DNA of 64,000 bases from Aurantimonas endophytica. Lineage in GTDB: Bacteria; Pseudomonadota; Alphaproteobacteria; Rhizobiales; Rhizobiaceae. A model generated the notes under the pieces. The model saw nothing but the letters and a program-made list of their open reading frames with translations, searched no databases and had not been told where the DNA came from. A program made the translations under genes and the position numbers. Positions 55,248-64,000 of this stretch are shown piece by piece (positions within the stretch are counted from its first letter, which is position 1; every line of letters starts with the position of its first letter). The stretch covers positions 186,001 to 250,000 of the forward strand of contig NZ_JACIEM010000002.1 of the NCBI RefSeq assembly GCF_014196845.1. Reading direction: 5' to 3'.

Positions 55248-56171
55248 TTACAGGCTCTCGAAGGCGCGCGCCATCTCCGCCCTGAGCGCCGCGTCCGGCA
55301 TCGGGCCCTGCGCGGCACCCATGTTCTCGCGCAGATGCCCGACGCGTCGCGTCGCCGGGATCGCGACGGTGACGGCGGGATGCGACACGATGAACTTCAG
55401 CAGGAATTGCGGCCAGTTCGCTGCGCCGATCTCGGCCGCGACGGCCGGCAGCGGCGCGCTTTGCACCGCGTCGACCAGCGCGCCCTGGCGGAACGGCCGA
55501 TTGGCGATCACCGCGATGCCGCGCTCGGCGGCCAGCGGCAGGAGCCGCGCCTCGGCCTCCCGGTCGGCGATGTTGTAGGTCAGCTGGACGAAGTCGATCG
55601 GCCGCTCGCGCATGATTGCCTCGATGTCGTCGTGCCTTCGCCCGTGCGAGGTGGTGATGCCGACATGGCCGATGCGCCCTTCCGCCTTCATCGCCTCGAG
55701 CGTGTCGAGATGGCCTTCCCAGCCGAGAAGATTGTGGACCTGCATGAGGCCGAAGCGCGGCACGCCCCAGAGCGCCTGCGTCTCGGCGATCTGCGCCGGG
55801 CCGTCGTCGGCATCGGATATCCATACCTTGTCGGCGGCAAACAGCATCTCGGGAATGCCGATCTCGCGCAGGCCATGGCCGACCGTCGCCTGGGCCGAGC
55901 CATACATCGGCGAGGAATCGATCATGCCGCCGCCCATTTCGAAGAAGGCGCGCATGACGTCGGTCCGCTGCGCCAGGGCTGCCGGATCCTCGCCGACATT
56001 GAAGGTGATCCAGGTGCCGAGGCCGATGACGGGGAGGGCCATGCCCGAGGACGGGATACGCTTGGCGAAGGGCGCCTCGGCTTGCGCCCGGGCGCCGCGC
56101 GGCCATGTCGCCAGGGCCGCTGCGCCCGCTGCCGCGCCACCGATGAAGCGCCGTCGATCCATTCCCGCCAT
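55248..56171 (-). CDS. Aldo/keto reductase with a Tat export signal
   Basis: 307 residues. The N-terminus is a twin-arginine signal: DRRRFIGGAAAGAAALA, cleavage near ARAQA. The aldo/keto reductase barrel follows with a full catalytic tetrad: Asp85 and Tyr90 in MIDSSPMYGS, Lys115 in AADKVWI and His146 in LMQVHNLL. These enzymes reduce aldehydes and ketones with NADPH; a periplasmic one would have to bind its cofactor before export. It is divergent from the LacI regulator across 184 bases that contain a regulator site, so it may belong to the same sugar regulon. Confidence 0.87.
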   Translation of the reverse strand: MAGMDRRRFIGGAAAGAAALATWPRGARAQAEAPFAKRIPSSGMALPVIGLGTWITFNVGEDPAALAQRTDVMRAFFEMGGGMIDSSPMYGSAQATVGHGLREIGIPEMLFAADKVWISDADDGPAQIAETQALWGVPRFGLMQVHNLLGWEGHLDTLEAMKAEGRIGHVGITTSHGRRHDDIEAIMRERPIDFVQLTYNIADREAEARLLPLAAERGIAVIANRPFRQGALVDAVQSAPLPAVAAEIGAANWPQFLLKFIVSHPAVTVAIPATRRVGHLRENMGAAQGPMPDAALRAEMARAFESL

Positions 56172-56313
56172 CCCTGTCTCCTTGCTGAGTACGTGCCGTG
56201 CTGGTGCAACCGCCCCTGGCCAGCCAGGTTGCAGCCTCGGCCGCGTTCACCCGATCAACAGCACTTGACCAGCCGTGTCTCTGCCTGCGCCCGATGGCGC
56301 CGCGAGGCGCATT

Positions 56314-56331
56314 TTGAGTTGCGTAGCTCAA
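56314..56331. promoter_or_regulatory. Putative LacI-family operator 1
   Basis: TTGAGTTGCGTAGCTCAA, an imperfect palindrome with the central CG typical of LacI-family operators. It lies 25 bases before the lacI start and in the divergent region with the aldo/keto reductase gene. Its reverse complement matches operator 2 (57410-57427) at 16 of 18 positions. Confidence 0.75.
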
Positions 56332-56355
56332 CCAATCCCGGCTAGCGTCCGCGCC

Positions 56356-57390
56356 ATGGAGGACCATCCGCAGAGTACCCTGGTCGACGTCGCCCGCGAG
56401 GCCGGCGTCTCGCGTGCCACCGTCGACCGGGTCATCAACGGCCGCCCCAACGTCAAGGCCAAGACCGTCGCCAAGGTCCGCGACGCGATGGCCAGGCTGC
56501 ATTACCGGCCGGACCCGCTGGCGGCGGGTCTTGCGCGGCGCTCGCGCCATCGCTTCTGCTTCGTCCTGCCCACCGGCACCAACGCCTTCATGCAGGATCT
56601 CGCCTCCCACATCGCCACGATGGGCGACTGGCTGGCACGCAACCGCGCCTTCGTCGACCGGGTCGAGGTCGACGTCTTCGACCCGCAGGCGTTGGCGACG
56701 GCGCTCGACGAACTGCCCCGCGCCTATGACGGCGTGGCGGTGGTGGCGCTGGACGATCCGCTGGTGCGGGCCGCCATCGACCGGCTGGTCGCCGACGGCG
56801 TGCCGGTGGTGACGCTCGTCTCCGACGTGCCGGCCTCGCGGCGCCTGCGCTTCGTCGGCATCGACAACAGCGCCGCCGGCCGCACGGCGGCGATGCTGCT
56901 CGGGCGCTTCCTTGCCGGGCAGAAGGGCAGCGTCGGCGTCCTCGTCGGGTCGCTGTCGCTGCGCGACCACATGGAGCGCTGCTTCGGCTTCTCGCAACTG
57001 CTTGGCCGGGAGTTCCCCGGGCTTCGCATCCTGCCGGTCATGGAGATGCGCGACGACCGCGAACTTGCGGAGACGGCCGTGCGCGACCTCCTGAAGACCC
57101 ACCCTGATCTCGTGGCGCTCTACAATGCCGGCGCCGGCAACCAGGGCGTCGCGACGGCGCTCAAAGCCGCACGCAAGACGCCGCGCCTCGTCTTCGTCGC
57201 GCATGAGCTGACGCCGCTCTCGCGCGAATTGCTGCTCTCGGGCACCGCCGACGCCGTGATTGCCCAGAACCCCGGACACGAGGCGCGCTCGGCCGCCCGA
57301 CTGCTCCTGTCACGCGGCCTCGACGAGGCGATCATCGCCGAGCAGGAGCGGATCCGCATCGACATCTTCCTGCGCGAGAACCTGCCCTGA
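56356..57390 (+). CDS. LacI-family transcriptional regulator
   Basis: About 344 residues from ATG 56356; an upstream in-frame start would run through operator 1. The N-terminal helix-turn-helix (TLVDVAREAGVSRATVDRVI, hinge KAKTVAKVRDAMARLHYRPD) is followed by a periplasmic-binding-like sugar domain (LPTGTNAFMQDLASHI, GQKGSVGVLVGSLSL). The recognition helix reads ATVDRV where most LacI proteins have TVSRV. It probably represses the downstream isomerase-dehydrogenase-ABC genes and itself, because the same palindrome lies before both. Ligand unknown. Confidence 0.9.
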   Translation: MEDHPQSTLVDVAREAGVSRATVDRVINGRPNVKAKTVAKVRDAMARLHYRPDPLAAGLARRSRHRFCFVLPTGTNAFMQDLASHIATMGDWLARNRAFVDRVEVDVFDPQALATALDELPRAYDGVAVVALDDPLVRAAIDRLVADGVPVVTLVSDVPASRRLRFVGIDNSAAGRTAAMLLGRFLAGQKGSVGVLVGSLSLRDHMERCFGFSQLLGREFPGLRILPVMEMRDDRELAETAVRDLLKTHPDLVALYNAGAGNQGVATALKAARKTPRLVFVAHELTPLSRELLLSGTADAVIAQNPGHEARSAARLLLSRGLDEAIIAEQERIRIDIFLRENLP

Positions 57391-57409
57391 TCGCCGGTTA
57401 TGGAATTTT

Positions 57410-57427
57410 TTGAGCTACGCACTTCAA
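57410..57427. promoter_or_regulatory. Putative LacI-family operator 2
   Basis: TTGAGCTACGCACTTCAA, 20 bases after the lacI stop and 94 bases before the isomerase gene start. It shares 16 of 18 positions with the reverse complement of operator 1, including the first 12 in a row. Position fits repression of the isomerase-led operon. The preceding T-run (57405-57411) might also help end lacI transcripts, but there is no stem. Confidence 0.75.
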
Positions 57428-57521
57428 AACCTTCTGGGCCTGTGCGAGGGTCCGGGCACGTTTGGCGCGATGGGAGGAAATCGATCGCGCCGCCGATGGA
57501 CAGGCGCCTGGGAGGGCAATC

Positions 57522-58580
57522 ATGAAGACGATGAAGGGGCCGGGGATCTTCCTCGCCCAGTTCGCCGGTGACGATGCGCCGTTCAACGACCTGAAGTCGA
57601 TCGCCGGCTGGGCCGCCGGGCACGGCTACAAGGGCGTACAGATCCCGACCTGGGACGCGCGGCTGATCGACCTGAAGAAGGCGGCCGAGTCCAAGGACTA
57701 TTGCGACGAGATCACCGGCATCTGCCGCGAGGCCGGTGTCGAAATCACCGATCTGTCGACCCATCTCCAGGGCCAGCTCGTCGCGGTGCATCCGGCCTTC
57801 GACGAGGCCTTCGATGGTTTCGCCGCGCCGGAAGTGCGCGGCAACCCGAAGGCCCGACAGGCATGGGCGGTCGACCAGCTGAAGCTGGCGGCCAAAGCCT
57901 CGGCGAATTTCGGCTTCACCAGCCACGTGACCTTCCCAGGCGCGCTCGCCTGGCCATTCCTCTATCCCTGGCCGCAGCGGCCGGCCGGGCTGATCGACAC
58001 CGCGTTCGAGGAACTGGCGAAGCGCTGGGTGCCGATCCTCGACGCGTTCGACGCGGCGGGATGCGACGTCGGCTACGAGATCCATCCGGGCGAGGACGTC
58101 TTCGACGGCGCCACGTTCGAGATGTTCCTTGAAGCCTGCGGCGATCATCCGCGCTGCCAGATCAACTACGACCCGTCGCATTTCGTGCTGCAGCAGCTCG
58201 ATTACCTCGAATTCATCGACATCTACCACGAGCGAATCTGCGCCTTCCACGTCAAGGACGCCGAGTTCAATCCGACTGGCCGGCAGGGCGCCTATTCCGG
58301 CTACCAGCCCTGGGTGAAGCGGGCGGCCCGCTTCCGCTCGCTGGGCGACGGCCAGGTGGATTTCGCCGGCATCTTCTCCAAGCTCGCGGAACACGACTAC
58401 GATTCCTGGGCGGTGCTCGAATGGGAGTGCTGCCTGAAATCGCCCGAGCAGGGCGCGGCCGAGGGCGCGCCCTTCATCGCCGCGCACATCATCGAGGTCA
58501 CCGACAAGGCCTTCGACGATTTCGCCTCCGGTGGGACTGACGAGGCGGCCAACCGCCGCATGCTCGGCATCGGCGGCTGA
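57522..58580 (+). CDS. Sugar phosphate isomerase/epimerase family protein (TIM barrel)
   Basis: About 352 residues from ATG 57522 (GGGAGGGCAATC upstream). The AP-endonuclease-2-like barrel keeps its divalent-metal ligands: Glu in VGYEIHPGED, Asp in INYDPSHFV, His in CAFHVKDAEF, and Glu in AVLEWECC. It resembles the YcjR group (3-dehydro-sugar 4-epimerase) and other rhizobial genes paired with Gfo/Idh/MocA dehydrogenases. It is first in the operon behind operator 2 and 11 bases before the dehydrogenase. Substrate unknown. Confidence 0.85.
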   Translation: MKTMKGPGIFLAQFAGDDAPFNDLKSIAGWAAGHGYKGVQIPTWDARLIDLKKAAESKDYCDEITGICREAGVEITDLSTHLQGQLVAVHPAFDEAFDGFAAPEVRGNPKARQAWAVDQLKLAAKASANFGFTSHVTFPGALAWPFLYPWPQRPAGLIDTAFEELAKRWVPILDAFDAAGCDVGYEIHPGEDVFDGATFEMFLEACGDHPRCQINYDPSHFVLQQLDYLEFIDIYHERICAFHVKDAEFNPTGRQGAYSGYQPWVKRAARFRSLGDGQVDFAGIFSKLAEHDYDSWAVLEWECCLKSPEQGAAEGAPFIAAHIIEVTDKAFDDFASGGTDEAANRRMLGIGG

Positions 58581-58591
58581 GGGAGGGCGGC

Positions 58592-59761
58592 ATGGCTATC
58601 GAAGGACGCGACGAGACCCACGCGCGGCGGATCCGCTACGGCATGGTCGGCGGCGGGCAGGGCGCCTTCATCGGCGGCGTGCACCGTATCGCCGCCCGCA
58701 TCGACGACCGGTTCGAGCTCGTCGCCGGCGCATTGTCGTCGACGCCGGAAAAGGCCAAGGCGTCGGCCGCCGAGATCGGCCTCGATCCGGCGCGCAGCTA
58801 CGGCTCCTACGAGGAGATGGCGACGGCCGAGAAGGCCCGCGAGGACGGCATCGAGGCGGTGGCGATCGTCACGCCCAACCACATGCATTTCCCGGTGGCC
58901 AAGACCTTCCTCGATGCCGGCTTCCACGTCATCTGCGACAAGCCGATGACGACGACGCTGGCCGAGGCGCGCGAGCTGGCCGCGATCGCCCGGGCATCGG
59001 GCAAGGTGTTCGTGCTGACCCACAATTACACCGGCTATCCGATGATCCGCCAGGCGCGGGCCATGGTGGCGGCGGGCGATCTGGGCGACATCCGCGTCGT
59101 CGTCGCCGAATATGCGCAGGACTGGCTAGCCGGACGCACCGAGGACACCGGCTCCAAGCAGGCCGGCTGGCGCGTCGACCCGGAAAAGGCCGGCGCCGGC
59201 GGCGCGATCGGCGATATCGGCACCCACGCCCACAACCTCGCCTGCTTTGTCACCGGCCTGAAGGTCGAGCGGCTATCGGCCGACCTCTCCTCCTTCGTCG
59301 AGGGCCGCCGGCTCGACGACAATGCCTCGATGCTGCTGCGTTTTGCCGGCGGCGCAAAGGGCATGCTCTGGGCGAGCCAGGTCGCGGTCGGCAATGAGAA
59401 CGGGCTGACGCTGCGCGTCTATGGCGACAGAGGCGGGTTGGAATGGTGCCAGGAAGAGCCGAACAAGCTCTGGTTCACCCCGCTCGGCGAGCCGAAGCGC
59501 CTCCTGACCCGCAACGGCGCCGGTGCCAACGCCGCGTCGACGTCGGTGTCGCGCCTGCCGGCCGGGCACCCTGAAGGCTATCTCGAGGGCTTTGCGACGA
59601 TCTACGCCGATGCCGCGGAACTGATCCGCGCCGCCGACGAAGGCCGCGCGCCGCCGGAGGGCCTCGCGCTGCCCACCATCGAGGACGGCATCGACGGCCT
59701 CGCCTTCATCGAGGCCTGCGTCGCCTCCTCGAAGCAGGACGGCGCATGGGTCGCGCTGTGA
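58592..59761 (+). CDS. Gfo/Idh/MocA family oxidoreductase
   Basis: 389 residues. An N-terminal Rossmann fold (YGMVGGGQGAFIGGVHRIAA) with AIVTPNHMHFPVA and the catalytic CDKPMTTTLAEA (Lys of the EKP-type motif) is followed by the alpha/beta domain containing AGGAIGDIGTHAHNLACF with the conserved Asp and His. Such enzymes oxidise sugar or polyol hydroxyls with NAD(P). It follows the isomerase gene directly; the pair may form and rearrange a keto-sugar. A 271-base stretch with palindromic repeats separates it from the transporter genes. Confidence 0.9.
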   Translation: MAIEGRDETHARRIRYGMVGGGQGAFIGGVHRIAARIDDRFELVAGALSSTPEKAKASAAEIGLDPARSYGSYEEMATAEKAREDGIEAVAIVTPNHMHFPVAKTFLDAGFHVICDKPMTTTLAEARELAAIARASGKVFVLTHNYTGYPMIRQARAMVAAGDLGDIRVVVAEYAQDWLAGRTEDTGSKQAGWRVDPEKAGAGGAIGDIGTHAHNLACFVTGLKVERLSADLSSFVEGRRLDDNASMLLRFAGGAKGMLWASQVAVGNENGLTLRVYGDRGGLEWCQEEPNKLWFTPLGEPKRLLTRNGAGANAASTSVSRLPAGHPEGYLEGFATIYADAAELIRAADEGRAPPEGLALPTIEDGIDGLAFIEACVASSKQDGAWVAL

Positions 59762-60032: not shown

Positions 60033-61547
60033 ATGAGCGCCCGGCCCGCCCCGATCCTCGCAGCGCGCGGCGTGCGCAAGTCGTTCGGCCCGGTCGAGGT
60101 GCTGCACGGCATCGACTTCGCGCTGCGGCCGGGCGAGGTGCATGCGCTGGTCGGCGAGAACGGCGCCGGCAAGTCGACGCTGATGAAGTGCCTGGCGGGC
60201 TATCAGAAGCCGACGAACGGCGAGATCCTGCTCAACGGCGAGCCGATCGACTTCGCCGACAGCGAGGCCGCCGAGCACGCCGGGATCGTGCTCATCCACC
60301 AGGAGTTCAATCTCGCCGAACAGCTCTCGGCGGAGGCCAACATCTTCCTCGGCCGGGAGATCAAAAAAGGCTTCTTCCTCGACTGGAAGGCGATGCGCGA
60401 GAAGGCCGGGCAGCTCCTGCGCGAGCTCGGCACGCCGATCGACACGCGGCTGCCGGTGTCGCAGCTGTCGGTGTCACAGAAGCAGATGGTCGAGATAGCC
60501 AAGGCGTTGGCCCGGAACGCGCTCGTATTGATCATGGACGAGCCGACGGCGGTGCTGACGCTGCGCGAGGCCGAGGTGCTGTTCGCGCAGATCGACCGGC
60601 TGAAGGCCGACGGCGTCGCCATCCTCTACACCTCGCACAAGCTCGACGAGATCGCCCGGGTCGCCGACGAGGTGACCGTCCTGCGCGACGGCAGCTTCGT
60701 CGCCGATGCGCCGGTCGCCGAGATGTCACCCGACCGCATGGCCGAGCTGATGGTCGGCCGCCAGCTGAGCGATCTCTTCCCGCAAAAGGACCCGGATGCC
60801 GCAGCCGAGATCGTCCTCTCGGTCCGCGACTTTTCCGTCCCCGGCCATGTCGAGACGGCGAGTTTCGACCTGCGGCGCGGCGAGATCCTCGGCTTCGCCG
60901 GGCTCGTCGGGGCCGGCCGCACCGAGCTGATGGAAGGCATCATGGGGCTGCGCCCCGCCACAGGCACGATTCAGCGGAACGGCGCCACCGTGCGCATCCG
61001 CAACCCGAAGGACGCGACGGGGCATGGGATTGGCTACCTCACCGAGGACCGCAAGGGCTGCGGCCTGCTGCTCGGCTACGGCATGCGCGAAAACCTGACG
61101 CTGCTCGGCCTCGACCGCTTCTCCGGCATCTTCGTCGACGAGAAGGCCGAGGACCAGGCGCTGGACACGGCGATCAAGCGCTTCGACATCCGCGCCGGCT
61201 CGCGCACGATCCCGGTCGGCAACCTCTCCGGCGGCAACCAGCAGAAGCTGTTGCTCGCCAAGACCATGCTGGTCGAGCCGCAGATCGTCATCCTCGACGA
61301 GCCGACCCGCGGCATCGACATCGGTACCAAGCAGCAGATCTACAATTTCATCCACCAGCTCGCCGCCGAAGGGCGGGCCGTGATCGTCATCTCCTCCGAG
61401 ATGTCGGAGGTCATCGGGCTCTGCCATCGCGTCATCGTCATGCGTTCCGGCCGGCTCAACGGCGAGGTGGCTGGAGACGACGTGACGGAGGAGGCCATCG
61501 TCCGCCGGGCCATGGGACTGGAAGGAAGTGCATCGCATGTCGGCTGA
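60033..61547 (+). CDS. Sugar ABC transporter ATP-binding protein (RbsA/MglA type)
   Basis: About 504 residues from ATG 60033 with two ABC domains, as in all ribose/galactose-type ATPases. Domain 1 has Walker A GENGAGKST (residues ~41-49), signature LSVSQKQMVEIAKAL and LIMDEPTAVL. Domain 2 has the degenerate P-loop GLVGAGRTEL and a full signature LSGGNQQKLLLAKTML with ILDEPTRGIDIG. It energises uptake of a monosaccharide or polyol with the next two genes. The permease start overlaps its 3' end by 11 bases. Confidence 0.92.
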   Translation: MSARPAPILAARGVRKSFGPVEVLHGIDFALRPGEVHALVGENGAGKSTLMKCLAGYQKPTNGEILLNGEPIDFADSEAAEHAGIVLIHQEFNLAEQLSAEANIFLGREIKKGFFLDWKAMREKAGQLLRELGTPIDTRLPVSQLSVSQKQMVEIAKALARNALVLIMDEPTAVLTLREAEVLFAQIDRLKADGVAILYTSHKLDEIARVADEVTVLRDGSFVADAPVAEMSPDRMAELMVGRQLSDLFPQKDPDAAAEIVLSVRDFSVPGHVETASFDLRRGEILGFAGLVGAGRTELMEGIMGLRPATGTIQRNGATVRIRNPKDATGHGIGYLTEDRKGCGLLLGYGMRENLTLLGLDRFSGIFVDEKAEDQALDTAIKRFDIRAGSRTIPVGNLSGGNQQKLLLAKTMLVEPQIVILDEPTRGIDIGTKQQIYNFIHQLAAEGRAVIVISSEMSEVIGLCHRVIVMRSGRLNGEVAGDDVTEEAIVRRAMGLEGSASHVG

Positions 61548-62535
61548 AGCCAGCTCCGTCGCAAAGCCTCGGAAGGGCGTGGACTTCCACGTGCTGGGGC
61601 CGCTGGTCGCGCTGGTGGCGCTGGTCATTCTCGGCATGTCGCTGAACGACCAGTTCCTGTCTTCCGGCAACGTCACCAACGTCCTCGCCCGCTCGGCCTT
61701 CATCGGCATCATCGCGGTGGGAGCGACCTTCGTCATCACCATCGGCGGGCTCGATCTGTCGGTCGGCTCGATGGCGGCCTTCCTCGCCGGCGTCACGATC
61801 ATCATCCTCAACGCCCTGGTGCCGGTGCTCGGCATTGGCTGGAACACGATCATCGTCGGCATGGCGGCCTGTCTGCTGCTCGGCCTGGCCGCCGGTTTCC
61901 TCAATGGCATCCTGATCACCGTCGGGCGGATCGAGGCCTTCATCGTGACGCTCGGCACGCTCGGCATCTTCCGTTCGCTGGTGGTCTGGCTGGCCGACGG
62001 CGGCACGCTGTCGCTGAATTTCGAGCTGCGCGAGGTCTACCGGCCGGTCTATTACGGCGGCGTCGCCGGCATCGCCTGGCCGATCATCGTCTTCGCCCTC
62101 GTCGCCATCGCCGGCGAGATCGTCATGCGCAAGACCGCCTACGGGCGGCATGCGGCGGCGGTCGGCTCCAATGCCCAGGTGGCGCGCTATTCGGCGATCC
62201 ACGTCGATCGGGTGCGGCTCGCCACCTACATGCTGCAGGGCATGCTCGTCGGCATCGCGACGATCATGTACGTGCCGCGCCTCGGCTCGGCCTCCTCGAC
62301 CACCGGCATCCTCTGGGAGCTCGAGGCGATCGCCGCGGTGATCATCGGCGGCACCGTCCTGAAGGGCGGTTTCGGCCGCGTCTGGGGCACGGTCGTCGGC
62401 GTGGTGATCCTCAGCCTGATCGACAACATTCTCAATCTGACGGACCTCGTCAGCCCCTATCTCAACGGGGCGATCCAGGGCGTCATCATCATTCTGGCCG
62501 TCGTCTTGCAGCGCGGCCGAAAAGGCGCGGCTTGA
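61537..62535 (+). CDS. Sugar ABC transporter permease (RbsC/XylH type)
   Basis: About 332 residues from ATG 61537 (GGAAGGAAG upstream; a GTG at 61528 is an alternative). About ten membrane helices and the BPD_transp_2 signature GGLDLSVGSMAAFLAG plus AVGSNAQVARYSAIHVDRV, IAAVIIGGTVLKGGFGRVWG. Family: integral membrane channel of ribose-type importers. Overlap with the ATPase gene implies coupled translation. Confidence 0.92.
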   Translation: MSAEASSVAKPRKGVDFHVLGPLVALVALVILGMSLNDQFLSSGNVTNVLARSAFIGIIAVGATFVITIGGLDLSVGSMAAFLAGVTIIILNALVPVLGIGWNTIIVGMAACLLLGLAAGFLNGILITVGRIEAFIVTLGTLGIFRSLVVWLADGGTLSLNFELREVYRPVYYGGVAGIAWPIIVFALVAIAGEIVMRKTAYGRHAAAVGSNAQVARYSAIHVDRVRLATYMLQGMLVGIATIMYVPRLGSASSTTGILWELEAIAAVIIGGTVLKGGFGRVWGTVVGVVILSLIDNILNLTDLVSPYLNGAIQGVIIILAVVLQRGRKGAA

Positions 62536-62562: not shown

Positions 62563-63525
62563 ATGAAGAAACTGATGAAACTCGCAGGAGCAGGCTTGGT
62601 CGCCGCTTCGCTGGCGCTGCCGAGCCTTGCCACCGCGCAGGATGCCGAGCCGGTGACGATCGGCGTCTCGATTCCGGCGGCCACGCATGGCTGGACCGGC
62701 GGCGTGAACTTCCACGCCCAGCAGGCGATCGACAGCCTGAAGGAGACCTATCCGCATCTGGAGTTCGTCCTCGCCACGGCGGGTGACCCGGGCAAGCAGG
62801 TCTCCGACGTCGAGGACATGATGGCGACGCGCGACATCGACGCGCTGGTCATCCTGCCGTTCGAATCCGATCCGCTGACCGGGCCGGTGAAGCGCGTCGC
62901 CGATGCCGGCAAGTGGGTGACGGTGGTGGACCGGGGTCTCGCCCAGGAGGGCATCGAGGACCTCTACGTTGCGGGCGACAACACCGCCTTCGGCCGCGTC
63001 GCCGGCGAGTACTTCAAGGAGAAGATGCCCGACGGCGGCAAGATCGTCGCGCTTCGCGGCATTCCGACGACCATCGACAACGAGCGGGTCGAGGCCTTCG
63101 AGGCCGCCCTCGAAGGCTCGAACATCGAGATCATCGGGATGGAGCACGGCGACTGGAACCGCGACAAGGCCTTCGAGGTGATGCAGGACTTCCTGTCGCG
63201 CTTCCCCGAGATCGACGCGGTCTGGGCTTCCGACGACGACATGGCGCTTGGCGTCATCGAGGCAATCAACCAGGCCGGCCGCGAGGGCGACATGTGGGTG
63301 CTCGGCGGTGCCGGCATGAAGCAGATGATCGAGCGGGTGAAGGCCGGCGACGCCATGGTCCCGGCCGACGTCACCTACCCGCCGGCGATGATTGCCACGG
63401 CGATCCGGCTGACCGCCGACCGCTTCGTGTCGCAGGCGCCGATGGAAGGCCGCTTCATCATCGGCTCAGTGCTGGTGACCCCTGAAAACGCCGACCAGTA
63501 TCTCTACCCGGACTCGCCGTTCTGA
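62563..63525 (+). CDS. Sugar ABC transporter periplasmic substrate-binding protein
   Basis: 320 residues with a clear signal peptide ([17 protein letters not shown]) and a periplasmic-binding protein type 4 (RbsB-like) fold: [68 protein letters not shown]. The ligand is not identifiable by eye; the [10 protein letters not shown] start of the pocket resembles ribose/xylose-type proteins. GGGAGGAATGAC precedes the ATG. Last gene of the transporter unit. Confidence 0.9.
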
Positions 63526-63685: not shown

Positions 63686-64000
63686 ATGACCGCAGGAAAC
63701 TTCTTCAGCCAGAGCCAGCCGATCGCCTTCGCCGGCACCGACAGCCGCGATCCGCTCGCCTTCCGGTTCTATGACAAGGACCGGATGGTGATGGGCAAGC
63801 GGATGGAGGATCATCTGCGCTTCTCCGTCGCCTACTGGCATTCCTTCACCTGGCCAGGCGGCGATCCCTTCGGCGGCGAGACCTTCAACCGGCCCTGGAT
63901 GCACGGCGGCGATGTGCTCGGCCTTGCCAAGCAGAAGGCCGATGTCGCCTTCGACATGTTCCGCCTCCTCGACGTGCCGTTCTTCGCCTTCCACGACGTC
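63686..64000 (+). CDS. xylA: Xylose isomerase (N-terminal 105 codons, cut by window edge)
   Basis: The ATG at 63686 (AGGA upstream) opens a frame that reads to the window end. It shows the XylA start: [36 protein letters not shown], and VPFFAFHDV, where the His is the catalytic base of ring opening. Xylose isomerase converts D-xylose to D-xylulose in the cytosol. The gene lies downstream of the sugar ABC genes behind a possible terminator, so it may be co-regulated or have its own promoter. Confidence 0.93.

Follow-up and report, generated by a model that had tools for sequence, protein, structure and literature searches.

Which genes does the LacI-family regulator encoded at this locus control, and are the two palindromes that flank its gene the sites through which it acts? 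The window, i.e., the whole stretch of 64,000 nucleotides of Aurantimonas endophytica DNA that was analysed, places the regulator gene (here lacI) between a divergent aldo/keto reductase gene and a row of sugar genes (Table 1). From the sequence it had been predicted that the palindromes are one operator in two orientations, by which the regulator controls its own gene, an isomerase-dehydrogenase-transporter operon, and possibly the reductase gene. Taking all data together, we consider it the best explanation, with a probability of roughly 0.86, that the palindromes are the operators of a local xylose-type LacI repressor, which acts on its own gene and on the operon and is released by a sugar.

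Table 1. Predicted operators and genes of the lacI locus, in window numbering.
Feature	Position	Strand	Remarks
Operator 1 (predicted)	56314..56331	.	TTGAGTTGCGTAGCTCAA; 24 nt 5′ of the lacI ATG
LacI-family regulator	56356..57390	+	344 aa; PF00356 helix-turn-helix and PF13407 sugar-binding domain; hinge helix
Operator 2 (predicted)	57410..57427	.	TTGAGCTACGCACTTCAA; 94 nt 5′ of the hydratase-like gene
Hydratase-like gene (earlier "isomerase")	57522..58580	+	TIM-barrel PF01261; full-length match to PDB 8ro4
Gfo/Idh/MocA dehydrogenase	58592..59761	+	closest solved chain 3v5n
Sugar ABC transporter ATPase	60033..61547	+	RbsA/XylG type
Sugar ABC transporter permease	61528..62535	+	RbsC type
Sugar-binding protein	62563..63525	+	closest solved chain 4joq, named ABC ribose transporter binding protein
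xylA, xylose isomerase	63686..64000 in the window, frame on to about 64999	+	only the start lies in the window
xylB	about 65316-66770		beyond the window, after xylA

Form, position and rarity of the two palindromes

Both sites are even, imperfect palindromes with a central CG, as predicted, and they are the same site in opposite orientation: the reverse complement of site 1 (TTGAGCTACGCAACTCAA) and site 2 (TTGAGCTACGCACTTCAA) are identical at 16 of 18 positions and differ at 2. Seven of nine pairs are formed within site 1 and six of nine within site 2 (listed for the relative L075, which carries the identical two strings). Site 1 spans the positions 42 to 25 nt upstream of the lacI ATG, and, this close to the start codon, a dimer bound there should block lacI transcription. 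On its other side, the start of the aldo/keto reductase gene lies 142 nt beyond the site. Site 2 starts 19 nt past the lacI stop codon. An alternative longer lacI reading from a GTG at 56275 exists; upstream of 56356, only the operator and its edges are conserved in diverged relatives. Scanning of positions 56100-57560 revealed no sigma-70-type promoter, and the promoter and terminator scans together gave nothing useful. A short GC stem followed by ATTTT (window positions 56297-56310) ends 3 bases short of operator 1.

Local regulons of the LacI family typically have even palindromes with a central CG, autoregulation applies to 72% of the studied regulators, and over 75% of the sites are located between 140 and 30 bp upstream of a start codon, according to the available part of a comparative survey (Ravcheev et al. 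2014, PMC4052901). With the LacI/GalR local sugar regulons described there, the locus shares the even 18-bp palindrome with central CG, the predicted autoregulation, one or two operons as putative targets, and the short upstream distance. The motif of the window was not seen in the main text of that survey, as far as this was available, and 12 site strings (four of them the two sites of the window in both orientations) were not found in the literature searched.

Within the 5.04-Mb genome the pattern TTGARNNNCGNNNYTCAA matches the two sites only, while the reversed-pattern control has 0 matches. When up to 3 mismatches were allowed, TTGAGNNNCGNNNCTCAA gave 10 matches in the window, fewer than by chance (shuffle mean 25.7), and TTGAGNTRCGYANCTCAA gave 11 places in the whole genome versus 6 in the control; with no more than 1 mismatch, nothing but the two sites matches TTGAGNNNCGNNNCTCAA in the window or TTGAGNTRCGYANCTCAA in the whole genome. 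The next-best match to TTGAGNTRCGYANCTCAA (C1:279129, 2 mismatches) is located before a TetR-like regulator gene. A genome-wide search for the site had been suggested as a way to further regulon targets; none that is credible emerged in the own genome. The palindrome TTGAGGTGAGTACCTCAG (L119, 2630-2647) precedes a TetR-like gene and is perhaps the own site of that TetR-like regulator. The names of TetR-like and iron-sulfur genes used here are our reading of the translations.

Conservation of the sites and the hinge helix of the regulator

A search for the regulator in 150 genomes, its own included, gave a match at E ≤ 1e-30 in 77 of them. From the longer match list 80 stretches (L035-L114) were taken, and 79 loci remained after L069 was dropped, which has the same regulator as L100. 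The 79 loci exclude the window; L003 and L004 were dropped as duplicates of L076 and L077. The comparison of orthologous loci, proposed along with the prediction as a test that could refute it, shows that the closest orthologues keep both sites. They are found at nearly the same places in L075 and L076 (regulator 96% identical), L077 (71%), and L078 (66%). In comparison to L077 and L078 the sites are islands in diverged DNA; with the close relatives L075 and L076 more of the sequence is shared.

Close to lacI, in the region from 250 bp upstream to slightly past the matched start and in that 1000-1350 bp downstream of this start, the 79 loci have 64 matches to TGANNNRCGYNNNTCA versus 0.3 in shuffles, with at least one match in 47 loci, an enrichment that is partly circular, as the pattern was picked after viewing the sites of the same loci. 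Over the whole loci there are 74 matches versus 7.6 expected, and the 10 away from lacI are about what chance gives. A test on eight genomes of the genus has its own control, the reversed pattern, which gave 0 in all of them. Five of these genomes (G000, G002, G003, G005, and G007) have the regulator, xylA, the hydratase-like gene, and exactly two sites. In G001, G004, and G006 none of these three genes reaches the thresholds used, and the site counts are 1, 0, and 0. The single match in G001 lies before an iron-sulfur-like gene in a genome without a regulator match and was taken as chance.

Distant family members have variants of the site, e.g., TTGATTTACGTACATCAA about 40-100 nt before lacI, or ATGAGGTACGTACCTCAT after lacI. 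Among the 687 plasmid records with a match, three were examined. In Sinorhizobium meliloti Ak57 pSymB (L123), with the gene order lacI-xylB-xylA-isomerase-Gfo/Idh, a related site begins 51 nt before lacI; in Bosea sp. NBC_00550 (L124) the regulator is the last gene of an operon, and the site is found 53 bp before the first gene; S. meliloti LMB1 (L125) has no site. L060, L063, L104, L105, and L110 each carry a pair of near-identical sites at a distance of exactly 30 bp. These pairs start 81-142 bp before the matched regulator start, and their spacing suggests a pairing of dimers on the same face of the DNA.

The regulator itself scores well above the family cut-offs (PF00356, 56.7 bits with a cut-off of 27; PF13407, 147.4 bits with a cut-off of 35.1). 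In LacI and PurR a leucine of the hinge helix enters the centre of the operator, at the central CG. Aligned with what we take to be the N-terminal sequence of E. coli LacI, the regulator of the window has A at the place of LacI A53 and L at that of L56. The relatives were aligned in the same way and sorted by a hinge rule, A or S at LacI position 53 plus L, I, or M at position 56. A site of at least 15 bits is present in 53 of the 57 loci that pass this rule and in 0 of the 22 that fail it; these counts are not independent, because the loci are related by descent, and the enrichment is partly circular, because the weight matrix was built from the same loci. Sites anywhere in the stretch were counted, and those of L052, L080, L091, and L093 (4 of the 53) are outside the lacI-flanking regions. 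Conversely, no site reaches the threshold in 26 of the 79 loci, and the regulator fails the hinge rule in 22 of them; L081, L084, L085, and L088 are hinge-bearing relatives without a site at the threshold. The co-occurrence of site and hinge fits a hinge helix that enters the central CG. Tabulated helix-turn-helix residues versus half-site letters were confounded by kinship.

Twenty of the 22 rule-failing relatives (L040, L054, L056, L057, L059, L061, L062, L065, L066, L068, L070-L074, L106-L109, and L111) are similar to the regulator and have kept the helix-turn-helix, but have neither a recognisable LacI hinge helix nor a palindrome of this type. L086 and L087 fail the rule, yet keep a partial hinge.

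Conservation, rarity, and co-occurrence with the regulator strongly support the view that the LacI-family protein controls its own gene and the downstream operon. This yields a well-supported operator motif and a target list for the regulator family across rhizobia and Aurantimonas.

The gene row behind operator 2 and the link to xylose

Control of the predicted isomerase-dehydrogenase-transporter operon is thus supported, but the row does not end there: it goes on to xylA (63686-64996 in window numbering), of which the window holds the start, and to xylB. Both genes pass curated family cut-offs. The importer and the binding protein of the operon look to be of the ribose type by sequence. Beyond xylB sugar transporter genes are found on the other strand, among them one for a binding protein with a score above the xylF cut-off. 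A ROK-type regulator gene (NagC/Mlc-like) is located by xylF (about 7900-9130 of L118, beyond the window). Since the latter is divergent from xylF, the xylose cluster may have two regulators. Counted from operator 2, xylA is gene number six in the genome of the window. No separate site precedes it, and a gap of 160 bp divides it from the gene before, so that its co-transcription with the operon is an assumption.

The gene arrangement in relatives is informative about the sugar. Between lacI and xylA, L077 lacks the hydratase-dehydrogenase-importer block; it keeps both operators, and the second one is found before xylA. The regulators of G005 and G007 show only 51% identity, and their genes come after those for the hydratase and the dehydrogenase; one site is located before hydratase-dehydrogenase-lacI, and a second one precedes xylA at another place (in G007 xylA is followed by xylB, the stretch of G005 ended in xylA). 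The site thus directly precedes xylA in L077, G005, and G007, and many relatives have the order lacI-xylB-xylA. The operators persist while the genes behind them get rearranged. An xylA match is present in 35 of the 79 loci and absent from 44; xylA and the hydratase-like gene (matches above 150 bits, 35 and 23 loci, respectively) occur together in 14 loci versus about 10 if independent, which is a weak test. Considering the operon that is followed by xylA-xylB and the separate targets, each with its own site, the regulator is best read as a LacI-type xylose regulator, and the gene content points to D-xylose as effector.

The arrangements in L077, in G005 and G007, and in the many lacI-xylB-xylA relatives all speak against a different assignment of the sugar, in which the operators do belong to the regulator and serve the hydratase-dehydrogenase-importer module (a glucoside-type 3-keto route), with xylA-xylB as bystanders. 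Its arguments are that the operator adjoins this module in the window, that the match of the hydratase is a D-glucal enzyme, that among solved chains the binding protein best resembles one named for ribose transport, and that the regulators of L042, L043, L048, and L053 (43-45% identity) stand before hydratase-dehydrogenase genes in stretches with no xylA match. We regard a sugar other than xylose as rather unlikely.

The first enzyme of the operon had been named an isomerase. The TIM-barrel gene is indeed part of the operon, but the protein is closest to a 2-hydroxy-3-keto-glucal hydratase (PDB 8ro4, E 4.9e-169, residues 1-350 of 352), and by this likeness it is a putative hydratase. From Agrobacterium a glycoside breakdown by oxidation, elimination, hydration, and reduction is known, with a putative hydratase, AtHYD, for whose role there is preliminary evidence, and with an operon for two putative isomerases and two oxidoreductases (Nat Commun 2023, PMC10628242, in its available part). 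We infer that 8ro4 is an enzyme of the AtHYD type. The window resembles this route in the full-length match of its hydratase-like protein to 8ro4 and in the Gfo/Idh-type oxidoreductase next to it; it differs in that the seven scanned window proteins include a single TIM-barrel protein of this kind and a single Gfo/Idh protein, and in the attached xylA-xylB. It is a speculative and rather doubtful idea that one xylose-type repressor jointly controls xylA-xylB and the hydratase-dehydrogenase pair of an oxidation-elimination-hydration-reduction route, which would be non-hydrolytic for xylosides. If true, D-xylose would be obtained from a 3-keto-xylal by the hydratase and the dehydrogenase and then be consumed by XylA-XylB. 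Apart from this idea, the proposed regulon places genes of a recently described glycoside route (hydratase, Gfo/Idh) together with those for the use of xylose, under a single switch.

A related cluster is present on pSymB of S. meliloti (CP090106), where a LacI-type regulator with 49.7% identity lies by xylB-xylA and a related site is found upstream. The identities are 64% for xylA, 62% for xylB, 72% for the hydratase-like protein, and 62% for Gfo/Idh. The gene order is different, and the window has an extra importer. The half-sites of the window are TTGAGTTGC, TTGAGCTAC, and TTGAAGTGC, compared to CTGATTTAC and TTGATGTAC of the S. meliloti pSymB type. The S. meliloti regulator SMc03165 is presumably linked to xylB-xylA. 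It figures in the available part of a paper on regulatory networks (PMC4560400). The accessible parts of the rhizobial regulatory-network literature contain nothing on the motif of the window regulator, and a literature search of similar scope found no description of a LacI-type xylose regulator in rhizobia.

The proposed switch and the divergent reductase gene

In our model a dimer would bind to each 18-bp site, with the helix-turn-helix on the TTGA half-sites and the hinge helices at the central CG. Acting as a repressor rather than an activator, it would hold down its own promoter (site 1, autoregulation) and the promoter of the operon for the hydratase-like enzyme, the Gfo/Idh dehydrogenase, and the sugar importer, while xylA-xylB would probably be expressed by read-through. 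The repressor would be released by a sugar, for which D-xylose or a closely related derivative is the likeliest candidate. The finding is real and the switch is of an ordinary kind, since LacI-family local regulons of such layout are common.

The ROK-type (NagC/Mlc-like) protein encoded by xylF in the same cluster raises the thought that another factor binds to the palindromes. We consider this very improbable: the sites track the LacI-type gene and the hinge helix over the 79 loci, even palindromes with a central CG are usual for LacI-family operators (PMC4052901, available part), and the sole exact match to TTGANNNRCGYNNNTCAA in the 18-kb stretch L141, which covers xylF and the greater part of the ROK gene, is before xylA. 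It is less probable still that the sites act as RNA hairpins or terminators, or that they form a pair by coincidence, as the terminator-like stem that ends 3 bases before site 1 is the one found versus 0.7 expected in shuffles, the sites recur upstream of moved target genes, and the reversed-pattern controls are 0.

The original prediction had also held control of the divergent aldo/keto reductase gene to be possible. This is not supported by the data, since besides the window the gene adjoins lacI in G002 and G003 only (20 genomes searched, the own included). Apart from the own gene, matches at E ≤ 1e-40 were found in G002, G003, G007, and G093 and in none of 15 relatives. The reductase gene of G007 is beside the site before xylA, and its matches are split over two frames. 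In G093 it is on a different contig from lacI, and no TGA-N4-CG-N4-TCA palindrome was found in the 3.9-kb stretch. G005 has no reductase match, yet the site before xylA is kept; likewise no match was found in the stretches L077, L078, L091, and L093, and L077 and L078 keep both sites. The reductase relative in L141 gives matches in two frames. The reductase of the window (55248-56171, minus strand) has a twin-arginine-type signal (TIGR01409, 20.7 bits with a cut-off of 16.7), which is an unusual address for the aldo/keto reductase family.
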